From assembly GCF_041821065.1 (NCBI RefSeq), contig NZ_JBGUAX010000003.1, positions 124,001 through 188,000 of the forward strand: a stretch of DNA of 64,000 nucleotides. The letters run 5' to 3'. Made by a program: the position numbers and the translations under genes. The stretch comes from Egicoccus sp. AB-alg2 (lineage in GTDB: Bacteria; Actinomycetota; Nitriliruptoria; Nitriliruptorales; Nitriliruptoraceae). The notes beneath the pieces are model-generated. The model worked only from the letters and a program-made list of their open reading frames with translations. It ran no database searches and was not told the origin of the DNA. Shown here piece after piece: positions 26,690 through 46,783 of this stretch (position 1 is the stretch's first letter; the number at the start of each line of letters is the position of its first letter).

Positions 26690-28402
26690 TCACGCGGTGC
26701 CGAGCCGCGCGTCGTCGGACACCGGCATGCCGGGCAGGTCCGCCTCGGTGCGTGGCTGCGTGCGCGTGCCCTCGTCCTCGTCGTCCTCGTCGAGGTCCTC
26801 GAGGTGAACGACGCGGTCACGGCCGGCGCGCTTGGCGGCGTACAGGGCGCGGTCGGCGCCGGCGATCAGTTCGGCGCGGTCCAGCGCCGTCCCGACGGTG
26901 GTCGCGATCCCGAACGACGCGGTCACGGTGCCGAGGTCGCGGCCGTCCTCCGACTCGAACTCCAGGGCCCGGATGGCGTCGCCCAGCCGCTCGCAGGCGC
27001 GGCGGGCCTCGGGTGCCGAGGTGTCGACCAGGATGACCGCGAACTCCTCGCCGCCGTAGCGGCACACGACGTCGCTGGTGCGCAGCAGGTCCTGCGCCCG
27101 CCGCGACACCCCGACCAGCACCGCGTCACCGGTGGGATGTCCGTAGGTGTCGTTGATCCGCTTGAAGAAGTCGAGGTCGAACAGGGCGACGGACAGCACG
27201 CGCTGTTCGCCGAGGTCGGAGCTGCGCGACACGCGTGACAGCTCGGCGGTCAGCCGCTGCTGCAGGTAGCGGTGATTGGGCAGGCCAGTCAGCCCGTCCG
27301 TGGTCGCCATGGACCGCAGGTCGGCCTGCAACCGGGCGTTGTCCAGCAGCAGCGACGCCTCGTCGGCGAGCAGGCTCAGCCGCCGCAGGTCCCCGCCGCG
27401 CAGCGACGGGGCACCCAGCAGCGGCTTGTTCACCTCGGCGCTGATGACGGCCAGGAGCCGGCCGTCGATTCGCAACGGCAGTAGGGCCAGCGGGGCGTCG
27501 GGTCCGTGCGCACGCTGCAGGACGCCCGGGCGCACGTCGTTGCGCTTGACCAGCGTCGGCGTGTCGCGCTCCACGGCGGTGGCGATGGGATGCTCGGAAG
27601 GGGAGAGCAGGGCGGCTTCCTCGACGGCGTCGCCGCCGCCGTGCCCGGCCTGCGCCACCGGCTTCAGGCGTCCCTCGTGGGTCAGCCAGACGACCGCACC
27701 GCGGTAGTCGAGCTGGTCGACCATGGTGGTCGCCAACGCCTCGCAGACGCGGTCAACGCCACGTCGCGGGTCGAGTTGCCGGGTGACCTGGCGCAGCATC
27801 GTGAGGTCGGTCAGCCAGCGGCGCAGGTCGCGCTCGGTGACGCCGTTGAGCACCCCCACCAGGCCGGTGACCGCCCACAGCCCCAGCAGCAACCAGACGG
27901 CGCGCAGGTCCGGGTCCAGCGCCAGCGCGAGGCTGCCGTCGACGGGCCGCACGGCGTCGACCGCCTGCGGCAGGGTCGGCGGGTCGACCGAGCGCACCCA
28001 CAGCAACGCGATACTGAGCACGGCAGCGATCCGCACGCCACCGCCCCACCCGAACACGAGCGTGACGGCGACGGCCTCGGCCAGCACCAGCCAGGCCAGC
28101 GGGCTCGCGATACCGCCGGTCACCGCCAGCACCACCGCGATCGCGGCGGCGTCCATCAGCGCGGTCAGTTCGATGACCGCGGGCAGGGCGTCCCGGCGCT
28201 GCGAGGCGATCAGGCTGACGGCGTTGACGACGAGGTGACCGACGGCGACGGCCACCAGTAGCGAGGCGCCGGCGGGATCGACGAGGTCGCGACCCAGCGT
28301 GGCGAGGTACAGGGCGAAGACCGCCAGGGCCAGCAGCCGACCGACCGTGACCGCGCGCAACCGCGCTCCGCGAGTGACGTCGTCAGAGGCGGTGGCGCTC
28401 AC
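26690..28402 (-). CDS. membrane diguanylate cyclase (GAF-GGDEF)
   Basis: A 570-residue signalling enzyme that makes c-di-GMP from two GTP. About five to six transmembrane helices occupy residues 18-215, a GAF-like domain follows (about 225-375), and the GGDEF domain starts at MATTDGLTGLPNHRYL. The active-site loop is RYGGEEF, a catalytically competent variant, and RTSD lies exactly five residues before it, matching the RxxD product-inhibition site. GTG 28402 is chosen because an AGGAGG lies just upstream; it overlaps the end of the upstream gene by 20 bases, so the two are probably co-transcribed. The C-terminus is an acidic tail (DLDEDDEDEG). Confidence 0.93.
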   Translation of the reverse strand: MSATASDDVTRGARLRAVTVGRLLALAVFALYLATLGRDLVDPAGASLLVAVAVGHLVVNAVSLIASQRRDALPAVIELTALMDAAAIAVVLAVTGGIASPLAWLVLAEAVAVTLVFGWGGGVRIAAVLSIALLWVRSVDPPTLPQAVDAVRPVDGSLALALDPDLRAVWLLLGLWAVTGLVGVLNGVTERDLRRWLTDLTMLRQVTRQLDPRRGVDRVCEALATTMVDQLDYRGAVVWLTHEGRLKPVAQAGHGGGDAVEEAALLSPSEHPIATAVERDTPTLVKRNDVRPGVLQRAHGPDAPLALLPLRIDGRLLAVISAEVNKPLLGAPSLRGGDLRRLSLLADEASLLLDNARLQADLRSMATTDGLTGLPNHRYLQQRLTAELSRVSRSSDLGEQRVLSVALFDLDFFKRINDTYGHPTGDAVLVGVSRRAQDLLRTSDVVCRYGGEEFAVILVDTSAPEARRACERLGDAIRALEFESEDGRDLGTVTASFGIATTVGTALDRAELIAGADRALYAAKRAGRDRVVHLEDLDEDDEDEGTRTQPRTEADLPGMPVSDDARLGTA

Positions 28403-42220: not shown

Positions 42221-44056
42221 TCACCGGGCCGTGATGGCGCCCTCGACGACCAGGAGGTCGAGCGAGCGGGCGATGAAGGTCGCGGTCTGGGCACGGGTGA
42301 CCATGCCGGCCGGCCGATACCGATGACTGTCGACACCGCTCGTGATGCCGACGCCGGCGAGCTTGGCCACCGAACTCGCATGCGGTGAGGAGGTCGGCAT
42401 GTCGGTGAACCGCATGCCCTTCGGCGCCGTCAACTGGAGCCCGTAGCGTTGCTCCACCACGCGCGTCATCAGCGTGGCCATCTGGTCGCGACGGATCTGG
42501 CGGTCGGGACCGAACGTGCCGTCCTTGTAGCCCTCGATGACGCCCAGGCCGTTCAGACGCTCGATCGCCGCCTCGTGGCGGTGGCCGCGGGTGTCCGGGA
42601 ACCGCGTGATCTTCGTGGGCTGTTCGAAGTGCTCGGTCGCGTTCAGCGTGCGGTCGAGCAGGGCGGCGAACTCGCCGCGCGTCAGTGCTCGGGACGGCCG
42701 GTAGTTCGTGAGGGGAAAGATCCCGATGCCCCAGTACTCGAGGCATTCGATGCCGGGGGCGTGCACCTCGGCCCAGGAGTGGTACGTGGCGCCGTCGCCG
42801 GGGCAGGCGTTCGCGATGGAGCGGGCCGTCCCGCTGTCAGCTGGGCTCGCCGTGCCGGTAGGGGACTCGTTGACGGGCGTGCCCGTGTCGATCGGCGCGG
42901 TCAGGCGGTCGAGCGTGGCATCGGCGCGGATACGCCCTGCGCCGAGCGAGAAGGAAACCTTCACGGTGCTTCGCTGCACGGCGTCACGCACCTGGTCGGG
43001 CGTCGCCGCGGGGTTGGCGGAGAACGCGAGGGCGGCCGTGCCGGCGACCAGCGGCGTCGCCGAGGAGGTCCCGCAGAAGGTGCTGTAGCCGCCACCGCGC
43101 TGCGTGGTGACGTTGCAGCCAGGCGCCGCCACGTCGACCCACGAGCCGTAGTTGGACCAGGAGTAGCGTCCGTCGCTGTTCGTCGAGCCGGCAACGGCGA
43201 GCACGTGCTTGTGCCCGGCGGGGTAGCGGACCTCGGTGGTCCCGGCGTTGCCGGCGGAGGCCACGACGAGCATCCCCTTGGAGCGGGCGTAGGTGATCGC
43301 GTCGTTGAGGGTCTGGCTCGAGCCCGTGCTGCTGAGGCTGAGGCTGGCGACCTGCGCGCCCTGGTCGGCGGCCCACACGAGGCCCTTGGCGACCGACGAC
43401 GTCGTGCCGCTGCCGGTGCGGTCGAGGACCTTGACCGGCAGCACCTTGCACTCCCAGCACATGCCGGCCACCCCGATGCGGTTGTTACCGCGCGCGGCCA
43501 CCAGTCCGGCGGCAGCCGTGCCGTGCCCGTTGTCGTCGGCCGTCGACGTCGTCCCGTTGACGAAGGAGCGGCCCGTGAGCACGGCGCCACGAAGATCGGC
43601 ATGTTGTGCGTCGACGCCGCTGTCGAGCACGGCCACGACCACCGAGCCCTTCCCGGTGGTGCGTCGCCAGGCGGCCGGGGCGCCGATGCGCTGCTGCCCC
43701 CACTGCTCGGCCCACAGGGGGTCGTTGGGCGTGACGGTGTCGGCGAACACGGCGACGTCGGGCTCCACGTAACGGACGCGCCGGTCCTGACGGAGGCGAC
43801 GAAGGGTGTTGGCCGCCTCGGATGTGGGAACCTCGAGCACCTCGACGCCGAGCTCGTCGATGTCGTCAGCGACGGAGCCCGACGTCGCTGCGACGGCGTT
43901 GCGGACAGCTCCGGGTTCATAGGCGACCACGATCCGTTCCGTGGCCTCGTCGCCGGACGGGCCGTCGGAGGCGTGCGCCGGGACGGTCGCGAGCAGCAGC
44001 GAGGCGACGGTGAGCGTGACGAGTGTGCGGCGGGCGCGGGGCAGTGACGCGGACAT
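42221..44056 (-). CDS. secreted subtilase (S8) with three C-terminal SLH repeats
   Basis: A 611-residue cell-surface protease. Signal peptide about 1-30, an I9-like propeptide (RIVVAYEPGAVRNAVA), and a catalytic domain with Asp in VVAVLDSGVDAQHADL, His in NGHGTAAAGLVAA and Ser in CGTSSATPLVAG; NYGSWVDVAAPGCNV is typical. A linker leads to three S-layer homology repeats (about 440-605): ALTRGEFAALLDRTL, FPDTRGHRHEAAIERLNGLGVIEGY and FTDMPTSSPHASSVAKLAGVGI with RPAGMVTRAQTATFIARSL, which should bind secondary cell-wall polymer and hold it on the surface. The ATG at 44056 has AAGGA upstream and begins the signal peptide. Confidence 0.93.
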   Translation of the reverse strand: MSASLPRARRTLVTLTVASLLLATVPAHASDGPSGDEATERIVVAYEPGAVRNAVAATSGSVADDIDELGVEVLEVPTSEAANTLRRLRQDRRVRYVEPDVAVFADTVTPNDPLWAEQWGQQRIGAPAAWRRTTGKGSVVVAVLDSGVDAQHADLRGAVLTGRSFVNGTTSTADDNGHGTAAAGLVAARGNNRIGVAGMCWECKVLPVKVLDRTGSGTTSSVAKGLVWAADQGAQVASLSLSSTGSSQTLNDAITYARSKGMLVVASAGNAGTTEVRYPAGHKHVLAVAGSTNSDGRYSWSNYGSWVDVAAPGCNVTTQRGGGYSTFCGTSSATPLVAGTAALAFSANPAATPDQVRDAVQRSTVKVSFSLGAGRIRADATLDRLTAPIDTGTPVNESPTGTASPADSGTARSIANACPGDGATYHSWAEVHAPGIECLEYWGIGIFPLTNYRPSRALTRGEFAALLDRTLNATEHFEQPTKITRFPDTRGHRHEAAIERLNGLGVIEGYKDGTFGPDRQIRRDQMATLMTRVVEQRYGLQLTAPKGMRFTDMPTSSPHASSVAKLAGVGITSGVDSHRYRPAGMVTRAQTATFIARSLDLLVVEGAITAR

Positions 44057-44140
44057 GCGATTCCTTGGGCACCCCCGCCCGCGTCGGCTCGTTTTCCTGA
44101 ACCCACGGTGACGGTTTGCTGCCCCTGTCGGCAGGTGCCC
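44057..44140 (-). promoter_or_regulatory. structured 5' leader of the SLH-subtilase
   Basis: Read on the minus strand, GGGCACC (44140-44134) can pair with GGTGCCC (44073-44067), which sits directly before the AAGGA ribosome binding site; inside is a CTGCC/GGCAG hairpin. It is a plausible translation-control leader but is supported by one copy only. Confidence 0.35.
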
Positions 44141-44337
44141 TGGACGCCTGAAGCGATTCGCCCGATTTTCTTGGTGATGTGCCGTGGCCTCGGTTTGGTC
44201 AGCGGTGAAACGGGTCACGCTTCGCGCATATCAGAGCGCACTCGGTGTCGCGCGTAGTTCGCAACTCAACATCACGGGGCGCACAACCGTCTCCAAAGTG
44301 CTCGAGCCGGTCGCGCGATCGGTGATCATCTGCGTGA

Positions 44338-44495
44338 ACCGGCCTGGGGACTTGGCCGGTGCAACCACAGGGGTGTGGGGCAACGATCCAGCCGGCGGTA
44401 GTTGGTCGCCGAGCCGGCTGGGGAGTCAGGGGCGAAACCGACACACCTTCCCGACGGGGACGTGCAGACGCACATCCGGGAAGGAAGCACACACC
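44338..44495 (+). promoter_or_regulatory. structured leader RNA, copy 1 (riboswitch-like candidate)
   Basis: This leader shares a 90-base core (44367-44456) with a second leader at 46057-46146 at 86 of 90 positions. Predicted helices: H1 ACCGGCC/GGCCGGT (44338-44344 with 44354-44360); P1 GGTGTG/CACACC (44372-44377 with 44442-44447); P2 CCAGCCGGC/GCCGGCTGG (44388-44396 with 44413-44421); a small GTC-a-GG/CC-GAC hairpin (44425-44442); and CCTTCCCG/CGGGAAGG (44446-44453 with 44477-44484), which buries the ribosome binding site GGAAGGA ten bases before the ATG. Differences from the other copy keep the helices pairing. I do not recognise it as a known riboswitch class. Confidence 0.7.
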
Positions 44496-45728
44496 ATGCG
44501 CAAGCTCGTAACACTGATCAGCGCCATGGCGCTGATGGTCGGGATGCTCGCCATCCCGGCAGCTGCCGAGGACAGCGAGCCGCTGACCCTCGAGCAACTC
44601 ATCGAGGCCGCCGAGCAGGCGGACGCGCTGGTCGCGACGCTCGAGGGCGAGTTGGCCAACCTCGAGGACGACCTCGTGGACGCGAAGGACCGGCTCGACG
44701 CCGCCGACACGGCCGTCACGTCGAAGCAGGAGGAGCTGGACAGGGCGAAGGAGGCCCGGGCCAAGGCGGCTGAGGATCTCCATGACGCCGAGGCCGCCCT
44801 CACCTCTGCCCAGAGCGACCTCACAGCGGCGCAGGGTGCCGAGCAAGCGGCGCGGGACGCCCTCGCGGACGCCGAGGACGACCTGACCGCGGCGAAGGCC
44901 GCCGAAGCGACTGCCCAGGGCATCTACGACGACGCCGTCGAGGCGCGCGACGCGCAAATCGAGGTCATCAGCGACCTCGAGGACGACGTCGAAGCCGCCG
45001 AGTCCGCCCTTGAAGGCGCCATCGCAGCGCGGAGCGCAATCCAGCAGACCATCGCGAACACCACCAATACGCAGGGCAGCTGCGTTGGGACCCCGGCGCA
45101 GCGTGCCACCTGCGAGGCGGCGAAGGCCGCGCTCCCGGGCGCCGAGTCGGATGTCGTCACCAAGGACGGCGAGCTGAAGCAGGCCGAGGCGGACCTCGAA
45201 GCGGCGCTTGCACTACTCGCGGACCTTGAGGAGGACGTGACCGACGCGTTCGGCGAGTTGCAGGAAGCTACCAAGGACGTCGAGGACGCTAAGGGCGTCG
45301 TGACTTCCGCCGAGGCCGCCGTCGAGGCCGCCGTGGCTGACGTAGCTGCCAAGCAGGACATCGTCGACGAGGCGCTCGCTGACGTCGCTGATGCGACCGA
45401 CGCGCTCAAGGACGCTGACGACGACGTGAAGAAGGCTGCCGAGGACCTCGCGGACGCCATCACCGAGCAGATCGCCGCCGACGCCGCCGTGAAGCAGCTC
45501 GAGGCGGACATCGAGGCGAAGGAGCAGGAGCTCGCCGCGGCCAAGGTCGCCGCTGCCGAGGCACACGCCGCCGTCGAGGCCTACGTGCCCCCGGTGACCG
45601 TCGAGCGTCACCCGGGCTGCAACGGCATCGAGAACGCGGTGGTCCAGGTGACCACGAAGGGCAACGGCAAGGGCAAGGCCGCCGAGGTCCTGACGGCGAA
45701 GGCTGCCGACTGGAACTGCAACGCCTGA
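44496..45728 (+). CDS. secreted alanine-rich coiled-coil protein
   Basis: A 410-residue exported protein: signal peptide MRKLVTLISAMALMVGMLAIPAAAE, then about 330 residues of almost unbroken coiled coil made of heptads rich in Ala, Asp, Glu and Lys (DLVDAKDRLDAADTAVTSK, ALADAEDDLTAAKAAEA). A short loop with two Cys (NTQGSCVGTPAQRATCEAAK, about 189-205) breaks the rod in the middle. The last 45 residues form a non-coil head with two Cys (ERHPGCNGIEN, DWNCNA). The shape suggests an extracellular rod or spacer, perhaps S-layer associated; function unknown. It is preceded by leader copy 1 and followed by a strong terminator, so it is monocistronic. Confidence 0.85.
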   Translation: MRKLVTLISAMALMVGMLAIPAAAEDSEPLTLEQLIEAAEQADALVATLEGELANLEDDLVDAKDRLDAADTAVTSKQEELDRAKEARAKAAEDLHDAEAALTSAQSDLTAAQGAEQAARDALADAEDDLTAAKAAEATAQGIYDDAVEARDAQIEVISDLEDDVEAAESALEGAIAARSAIQQTIANTTNTQGSCVGTPAQRATCEAAKAALPGAESDVVTKDGELKQAEADLEAALALLADLEEDVTDAFGELQEATKDVEDAKGVVTSAEAAVEAAVADVAAKQDIVDEALADVADATDALKDADDDVKKAAEDLADAITEQIAADAAVKQLEADIEAKEQELAAAKVAAAEAHAAVEAYVPPVTVERHPGCNGIENAVVQVTTKGNGKGKAAEVLTAKAADWNCNA

Positions 45729-45746
45729 GTCACCAACGCAGCATCT

Positions 45747-45776
45747 GGAGGGGCGTCCCGTGTGGGGCGCCCCTCC
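45747..45776 (+). terminator. terminator of the coiled-coil protein gene
   Basis: A perfect 9-bp stem (GGAGGGGCG with CGCCCCTCC) and 12-base loop starts 18 bases after the stop. Confidence 0.8.
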
Positions 45777-46029
45777 CGCCGTTGGCCGACGGGTCGGCAA
45801 CCCCGCGATGTCGCCTTCCAGGCCACCGCGGCGCACACGCACTCTCCTGCGCGCGTGTTGGCCGGCCGCGGTCAGAGACAGCCAGGACCTACGACCGCGC
45901 ACCGCATCGATGACGCGATGCGCATACCACATTGCGGTGTGCTAGATGCTGATTTCCCCAACAACGTTGCCGAGCGCACGAGGTGCGACGAATCGCTCGA
46001 GTGGGGGGTTGGTGGGCCATCATGCCCGC

Positions 46030-46183
46030 GTCGGTCAGGGGCATTGGCCGGCGATGACAGGGGTGTGGGGCACCGATCCTGCCGGCGGTAGTTGGTCGCC
46101 GAGTCGGCAGGGGAGTCAGGGGCGAAACCGACACACCTTCCCGACGGAGGGGCGCTCGACGGCGCCGGGGAAGGACACACACC
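46030..46183 (+). promoter_or_regulatory. structured leader RNA, copy 2 (riboswitch-like candidate)
   Basis: Second copy of the leader. Core 46057-46146. Helices in the same order: H1 GTCGGTC/GGCCGGC (46030-46036 with 46046-46052, two G-U pairs); P1 GGTGTG/CACACC (46062-46067 with 46132-46137); P2 CCTGCCGGC/GTCGGCAGG (46078-46086 with 46103-46111), where A-U of copy 1 is replaced by U-A and one G-C by G-U; and CCTTCCC/GGGAAGG (46136-46142 with 46168-46174) covering the ribosome binding site GGAAGGA eight bases before the ATG. Sequence between core and start differs completely, but the pairing is kept. Confidence 0.7.
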
Positions 46184-46783
46184 ATGCGCAAGACCATCGC
46201 TGCCGGCTGTGCAGCGCTGACGTTGGTGGGCATGCTCGCCATGCCTGCTGCCGCGAACACCACGCGCGCGGCCAACTGCGAGGCCCTGGGTGGCACGTAT
46301 GCGCTCGGCTACCACCCGACGAAGCCAGGCGAGTTGCGGCCGGCGCACGACCGCTGCCTCGACGTCCCGCGGCTCGGTGCCCCGGTGTACGGAGAGTGGG
46401 AGGAGGTCTCCCGCGCGTCCGTCGCCGTCGGTGACGTCTTCACGACGAATGAGTACGTCTCCAGCGACCGGGTCAACAGCGACAACGCGGCACAGGACGT
46501 CTACCGCGTCACCTACGACGTCCAGTCGTGGCAGCTCTTCAAGGACGTGGTGCGGCTCGAGCGCACGGTCACGACGCGGGTCGAGTTGCTGACGCTGCAC
46601 GCCCAGGGCAACGACCGGTGGAACCTGCCGAGCGGCAAGGTCACCGGCGCCACCGAGCAGGTCGACGTCGAGGTCGACTTTGATGAGACCGAGCCCGTGG
46701 CGGAGCTCGTCGGCACAACTCGGACGACCTGCATGGAGAACCCCGGATCGTCCGACCGCGAGAACGCGTGCCCGGACTTCTGA
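46184..46783 (+). CDS. small secreted protein, unknown function
   Basis: A 199-residue exported protein: signal peptide MRKTIAAGCAALTLVGMLAMPAAA, then a beta-rich domain (YDVQSWQLFKDVVRLERTV, VDVEVDFDETEPVAELVG). Mature Cys residues occur at ANCEALGG, DRCLDV, TTCMEN and ENACPDF, so up to two disulfides are possible. No family recognised. Only its signal-peptide region and its leader resemble those of the upstream coiled-coil gene; the mature proteins are unrelated. Two hairpins follow the stop. Confidence 0.8.
   Translation: MRKTIAAGCAALTLVGMLAMPAAANTTRAANCEALGGTYALGYHPTKPGELRPAHDRCLDVPRLGAPVYGEWEEVSRASVAVGDVFTTNEYVSSDRVNSDNAAQDVYRVTYDVQSWQLFKDVVRLERTVTTRVELLTLHAQGNDRWNLPSGKVTGATEQVDVEVDFDETEPVAELVGTTRTTCMENPGSSDRENACPDF

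Follow-up and report, generated by a model that had tools for sequence, protein, structure and literature searches.

Class II riboswitches for c-di-GMP in C. difficile are ON switches which control adhesins and pili, mainly at the level of transcription (PMC11477304), and tandem c-di-GMP-II copies in front of surface anchor genes have been described as well (PMC9481103). In the structure 3Q3Z, which belongs to the family c-di-GMP-II (Rfam RF01786), the nucleotides in contact with c-di-GMP include A13, U37, A69, A70 and G73 (PMC7288161). RF01786 is the parent family of a variant catalogued in Rfam as the c-di-GMP-II-GAG riboswitch (RF03169).

The window analysed here, a stretch of 64,000 nucleotides from Egicoccus sp. 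AB-alg2 (Nitriliruptoraceae), gave two matches over the gathering threshold in cmscan, both to RF03169, each covering model positions 1-86 and exceeding the gathering cut-off of 40 bits with 51.1 and 48.7 bits respectively. The two leaders are thus an already catalogued kind of riboswitch and relatives of c-di-GMP-II. With RF03169 they have in common the full-length match with the helices P1, P2 and P3 and the pseudoknot; within the set of genomes searched, they also share its actinobacterial lineage and its position ahead of secreted-protein genes. Against RF01786 they reach 42.6 and 38.4 bits, below the gathering cut-off of 53.5 bits, although the architecture is shared and a related copy (G010:C1:5145615) passes this cut-off. 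As in the C. difficile class II switches, the targets are surface proteins, the likely ligand is c-di-GMP and the predicted logic is ON, but the window copies possess a Shine-Dalgarno hairpin as expression platform.

With a probability of about 0.75, the leaders are riboswitches of the c-di-GMP class II type on an RF03169 scaffold which would bind c-di-GMP through the standard contact bases A69, A70, G73 and U37 and thereby switch on the translation of secreted or surface proteins; the family match, the conserved pairing and Shine-Dalgarno hairpin, the neighbouring genes and the c-di-GMP enzymes of the host are observed, and ligand, direction of switching and strand exchange are each what we infer. 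Beyond the Rfam label, we predict a mostly standard pocket carried by the scaffold of a variant, and a translational platform particular to this subtype. The features are as follows.

44367..44452, + strand: aptamer, copy 1 (RF03169 match, 51.1 bits)
44372..44377, + strand: P1 5' strand GGUGUG, copy 1; pairs with 44442-44447 in the aptamer or with 44490-44495 in the predicted ligand-free fold
44436..44440, + strand: bases A(69) A(70) CC G(73) of the predicted ligand contact in 3Q3Z numbering, copy 1; U37 equivalent at 44403
44442..44447, + strand: P1 3' strand CACACC, copy 1
44446..44452, + strand: anti-Shine-Dalgarno CCUUCCC, copy 1, overlapping P1
44478..44484, + strand: Shine-Dalgarno GGGAAGG, copy 1, pairing with 44446-44452
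44496..45728, + strand: regulated gene 1, secreted Ala/Glu/Asp-rich coiled-coil protein of 410 aa with signal peptide
46057..46142, + strand: aptamer, copy 2 (RF03169 match, 48.7 bits)
46126..46130, + strand: bases A(69) A(70) CC G(73) of the predicted ligand contact in 3Q3Z numbering, copy 2; U37 equivalent at 46093
46136..46142, + strand: anti-Shine-Dalgarno CCUUCCC, copy 2
46168..46174, + strand: Shine-Dalgarno GGGAAGG, copy 2
46184..46783, + strand: regulated gene 2, secreted protein of 199 aa with signal peptide and without an assigned family

Predicted ligand pocket and signal

The register in which the contacts were mapped is set by what we take to be the sequence of 3Q3Z, which is consistent with the run C68 to A74 in the contact list, and the first G of GAG presumably stands for position 69, judging by the consensus of the model and by how GAG and GCG variants are named. 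By this mapping, both window copies read U, A, A and G at positions 37, 69, 70 and 73, the standard c-di-GMP-II set, and in each of them the nucleotides after which the variant is named are A-A-G. The consensus of RF03169 has G at 69 and C at 37; the window copies lack the variant-defining G at 69, where they carry A (44436 and 46126), and have U at position 37. Differences from RF01786 are the pair 40-68, U-A in the window copies versus G-C, and the contact A13, the equivalent of which is apparently G in both copies and A in some relatives.

The two further full copies of the window genome (G000:C3:55344-55441 and G000:C3:57981-58108) are of the G-A-G type, with C at 37 and G at 69. Over 82 copies, positions 37 and 69 are C-G in 46, U-A in 33 and otherwise composed in three, counted over related sequences and uncorrected for kinship; this joint exchange suggests that the two positions are in contact or paired and change in concert. 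More than one type of pocket occurs in seven genomes. In G008 both types stand in tandem before a single gene, A-A followed by G-A (G008:C243:3014-3205, minus strand), and in G004 (C11:90598-90782) an A-C and a G-A aptamer, overlapping by about 9 bases, likewise precede one gene. A divergent pair of riboswitches about 250 bases apart (G003:C1:842088 and 842421) has the pockets A-C-G and A-A-G.

The scaffold filed as GAG may respond to some other signal, be it a further cyclic dinucleotide or a related molecule, and the window copies might do so too despite their A-A-G pocket, which we regard as quite unlikely. The higher score of the Rfam variant model over the c-di-GMP-II model and the mapped G in place of A13 speak for a different signal, and such variants were reportedly proposed as possible sensors of other signalling molecules by Weinberg and colleagues (PNAS 2017). 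On the other hand, the bases that define the variant are not variant in the window copies, and the enzymes of the host argue for c-di-GMP. GGDEF genes are present in all 45 RF03169 carriers, and RF03169 was found in none of the seven GGDEF-less genomes of the 101 searched. Within the family, it occurs in 25 of 29 GGDEF genomes and in none of six others (Fisher p 1.3e-4, relatedness not corrected), a co-occurrence which rests on two GGDEF-less genera. The host itself encodes c-di-GMP enzymes (GGDEF proteins), with 14 GGDEF, nine EAL and one PilZ matches in its genome. A serine at the guanine position of GGDEF domains is the mark of the cAMP-GMP (Hypr) enzymes; the regular GGDEF domains of the window genome which are readable by pattern keep the aspartate of GHxxGD, and none has the Hypr-type serine. 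One degenerate domain has threonine, one has histidine, and several domains were unreadable by pattern. One GGDEF domain protein is encoded in the window itself (26813-27307, minus strand; G000:C3:150813-151307).

Shine-Dalgarno hairpin and predicted direction of switching

Of ten AA-type leaders in the family, nine have an aptamer 3' end that complements the Shine-Dalgarno region over seven bases or more; the longest such run in the GA-type leaders is six (n=39). When ten leaders were folded individually, each formed a hairpin in which anti-Shine-Dalgarno and Shine-Dalgarno enclose an apical stem of variable sequence, with z-scores from -1.1 to -5.2, and one leader with CCUUUCC/GGAAAGG exhibits a compensatory change in this hairpin. 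Folds of the whole leaders (11), the energies of which leave out pseudoknot and ligand, place the Shine-Dalgarno sequence inside this hairpin in most cases; in the free minimum-energy folds of copy 2 and of G002 it pairs elsewhere. Several of the minimum-energy folds pair GGUGUG of P1 with the CACACC beside the AUG, and it is on these folds that the predicted start-proximal pairing, an inference, rests. A general test for duplexes between ribosome site and aptamer, in which partners were swapped as control, yielded a weak signal over the whole set (mean z -0.5 to -0.7 in the family), in part because GGUGUG and the Shine-Dalgarno sequence are common to AA-type leaders, which blunts the swap.

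In the ligand-free state, the CCUUCCC in the 3' flank of P1 would pair with the Shine-Dalgarno GGGAAGG in a hairpin, the 5' strand of P1 could pair with the CACACC adjoining the start codon, and translation would be off. Binding of the ligand would stabilise P1 and the pseudoknot, whereupon P1 would reclaim CC(UU) of the anti-Shine-Dalgarno and free the ribosome site, so that translation is on when the signal is high. The prediction of a translational ON switch derives from this competition between P1 formation and anti-Shine-Dalgarno pairing. Upon forcing P1 to form, accessibility of the Shine-Dalgarno sequence rises in most of the 11 leaders, from 0.00 to 0.58 in copy 1 and from 0.21 to 0.51 in copy 2, is raised little in G003a (0.06 to 0.28) and G010a (0.00 to 0.21), and gains nothing in two of the 11, G003c and G026, the latter being, like the window genome, a member of the Nitriliruptoraceae.

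The opposite logic, an OFF switch in which ligand-bound P1 stacks on the Shine-Dalgarno hairpin and stabilises it without competition, could draw on those small gains and on the extent of the overlap of P1 and anti-Shine-Dalgarno, which comprises only CC, up to CCUU, so that UUCCC/GGGAA could coexist with P1. Yet the two full helices exclude each other owing to the bases that they share, most leaders gain accessibility once P1 is forced and the C. difficile class II switches are ON switches (PMC11477304), and we consider an OFF switch improbable.

In the GAG copies on C3 of the window genome (L087), a P3 strand or the P1 flank has its complement in the ribosome-site sequence GGUUCUGG(AC), which points to an expression platform of another kind.

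Conservation of the leaders

The 90-base cores of the two leaders, 44367-44456 and 46057-46146, are identical at 86 of 90 bases by direct comparison. The four differences (copy 1/copy 2) are 44383 A/C, 44390 A/T, 44414 C/T and 44419 T/A, of which 44390 and 44419 are partners and turn an A-U into a U-A pair, and that at 44414 converts G-C into G-U. The segments of about 25 nt between core and Shine-Dalgarno have seven matches and are essentially unrelated, and so are the mature proteins, with likeness confined to the signal peptides, which span about 25 residues at the start. The initial annotation, which had described near-identical cores with pairing-preserving changes between unrelated flanks and mature proteins, is borne out in these respects. 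It had also named a very recent duplication as one explanation that would undo its reading; copy 1, however, resembles the copy in a different species (G002) no less than it does window copy 2 (95% each), which argues that the copies are more than that.

Selection on RNA structure, which had been deduced from the compensatory changes of the two copies, is supported by the wider alignment. Among 11 leaders of the window subtype from seven genomes, 98.2% of paired cells in P1, P2, P3 and the pseudoknot are standard, six pairs have changed on both sides, and the covariation score was reached by none of 500 shuffles; pairing in slid controls falls to about 40%. Covariation is located in P2, P3 and one pseudoknot pair, which in G010 is changed from U-A to C-G. 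The hairpin H1 upstream of the cores, which had been proposed as conserved, did not withstand comparison: it is unexceptional against dinucleotide shuffles in the two copies (z -1.0 and -0.6), a consistent counterpart was not found in relatives, and it was dropped as a conserved part. The comparison with Rfam that had been recommended also decided against the suggestion of a candidate new riboswitch class, as two full-length matches to the described family RF03169 above gathering leave next to no probability for a class unrelated to known ones.

Carriers and regulated genes

RF03169 is carried by 45 of 101 genomes, comprising the window genome and its relatives. A class-wide search found no carrier genomes beyond this set, and a DNA pattern of the subtype run over the named genomes gave only two matches, both in genomes already in the set. 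The window genome has in addition a weak fifth copy below the cut-off (30.5 bits, G000:C1:417682-417762, L088), which precedes a camelysin/TasA-like gene (PF12389).

The distance from aptamer to start codon is mostly 30 to 60 bases, and nearly every first gene thereafter encodes a signal peptide, as judged by a rough criterion of hydrophobicity. Pfam domains of the downstream genes include LPXTG anchors, SpaA/SdrD-like domains, SLH, Flp pilin, CAP and camelysin. Homologues stand almost always before exported-protein genes, with pairing retained in the leaders aligned, and the proposal of a structured RNA that regulates surface or secreted proteins in cis, selected for pairing, is supported by family match, covariation and downstream genes alike. 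The product of regulated gene 1, rich in coiled coils, has no confident family; that of gene 2 has a homologue of 48% identity in G001, likewise behind an RF03169 riboswitch. Directly upstream of and divergent from the first riboswitch gene, a subtilase with S-layer homology domains is encoded (42221-44218, minus strand).

Whether a Nitriliruptoraceae genome uses two types of pocket, U37-A69 and C37-G69, to read two nucleotide signals and to steer two sets of surface proteins, with 37/69 as the specificity switch, is a speculative and rather doubtful extension. The presence of both types in one genome provides matched natural aptamers for the question of the ligand of the GAG variant. With riboswitches of the c-di-GMP class II type as the preferred reading, uncharacterised secreted proteins of Nitriliruptoraceae are assigned a likely signal, c-di-GMP, and a predicted ON mechanism.
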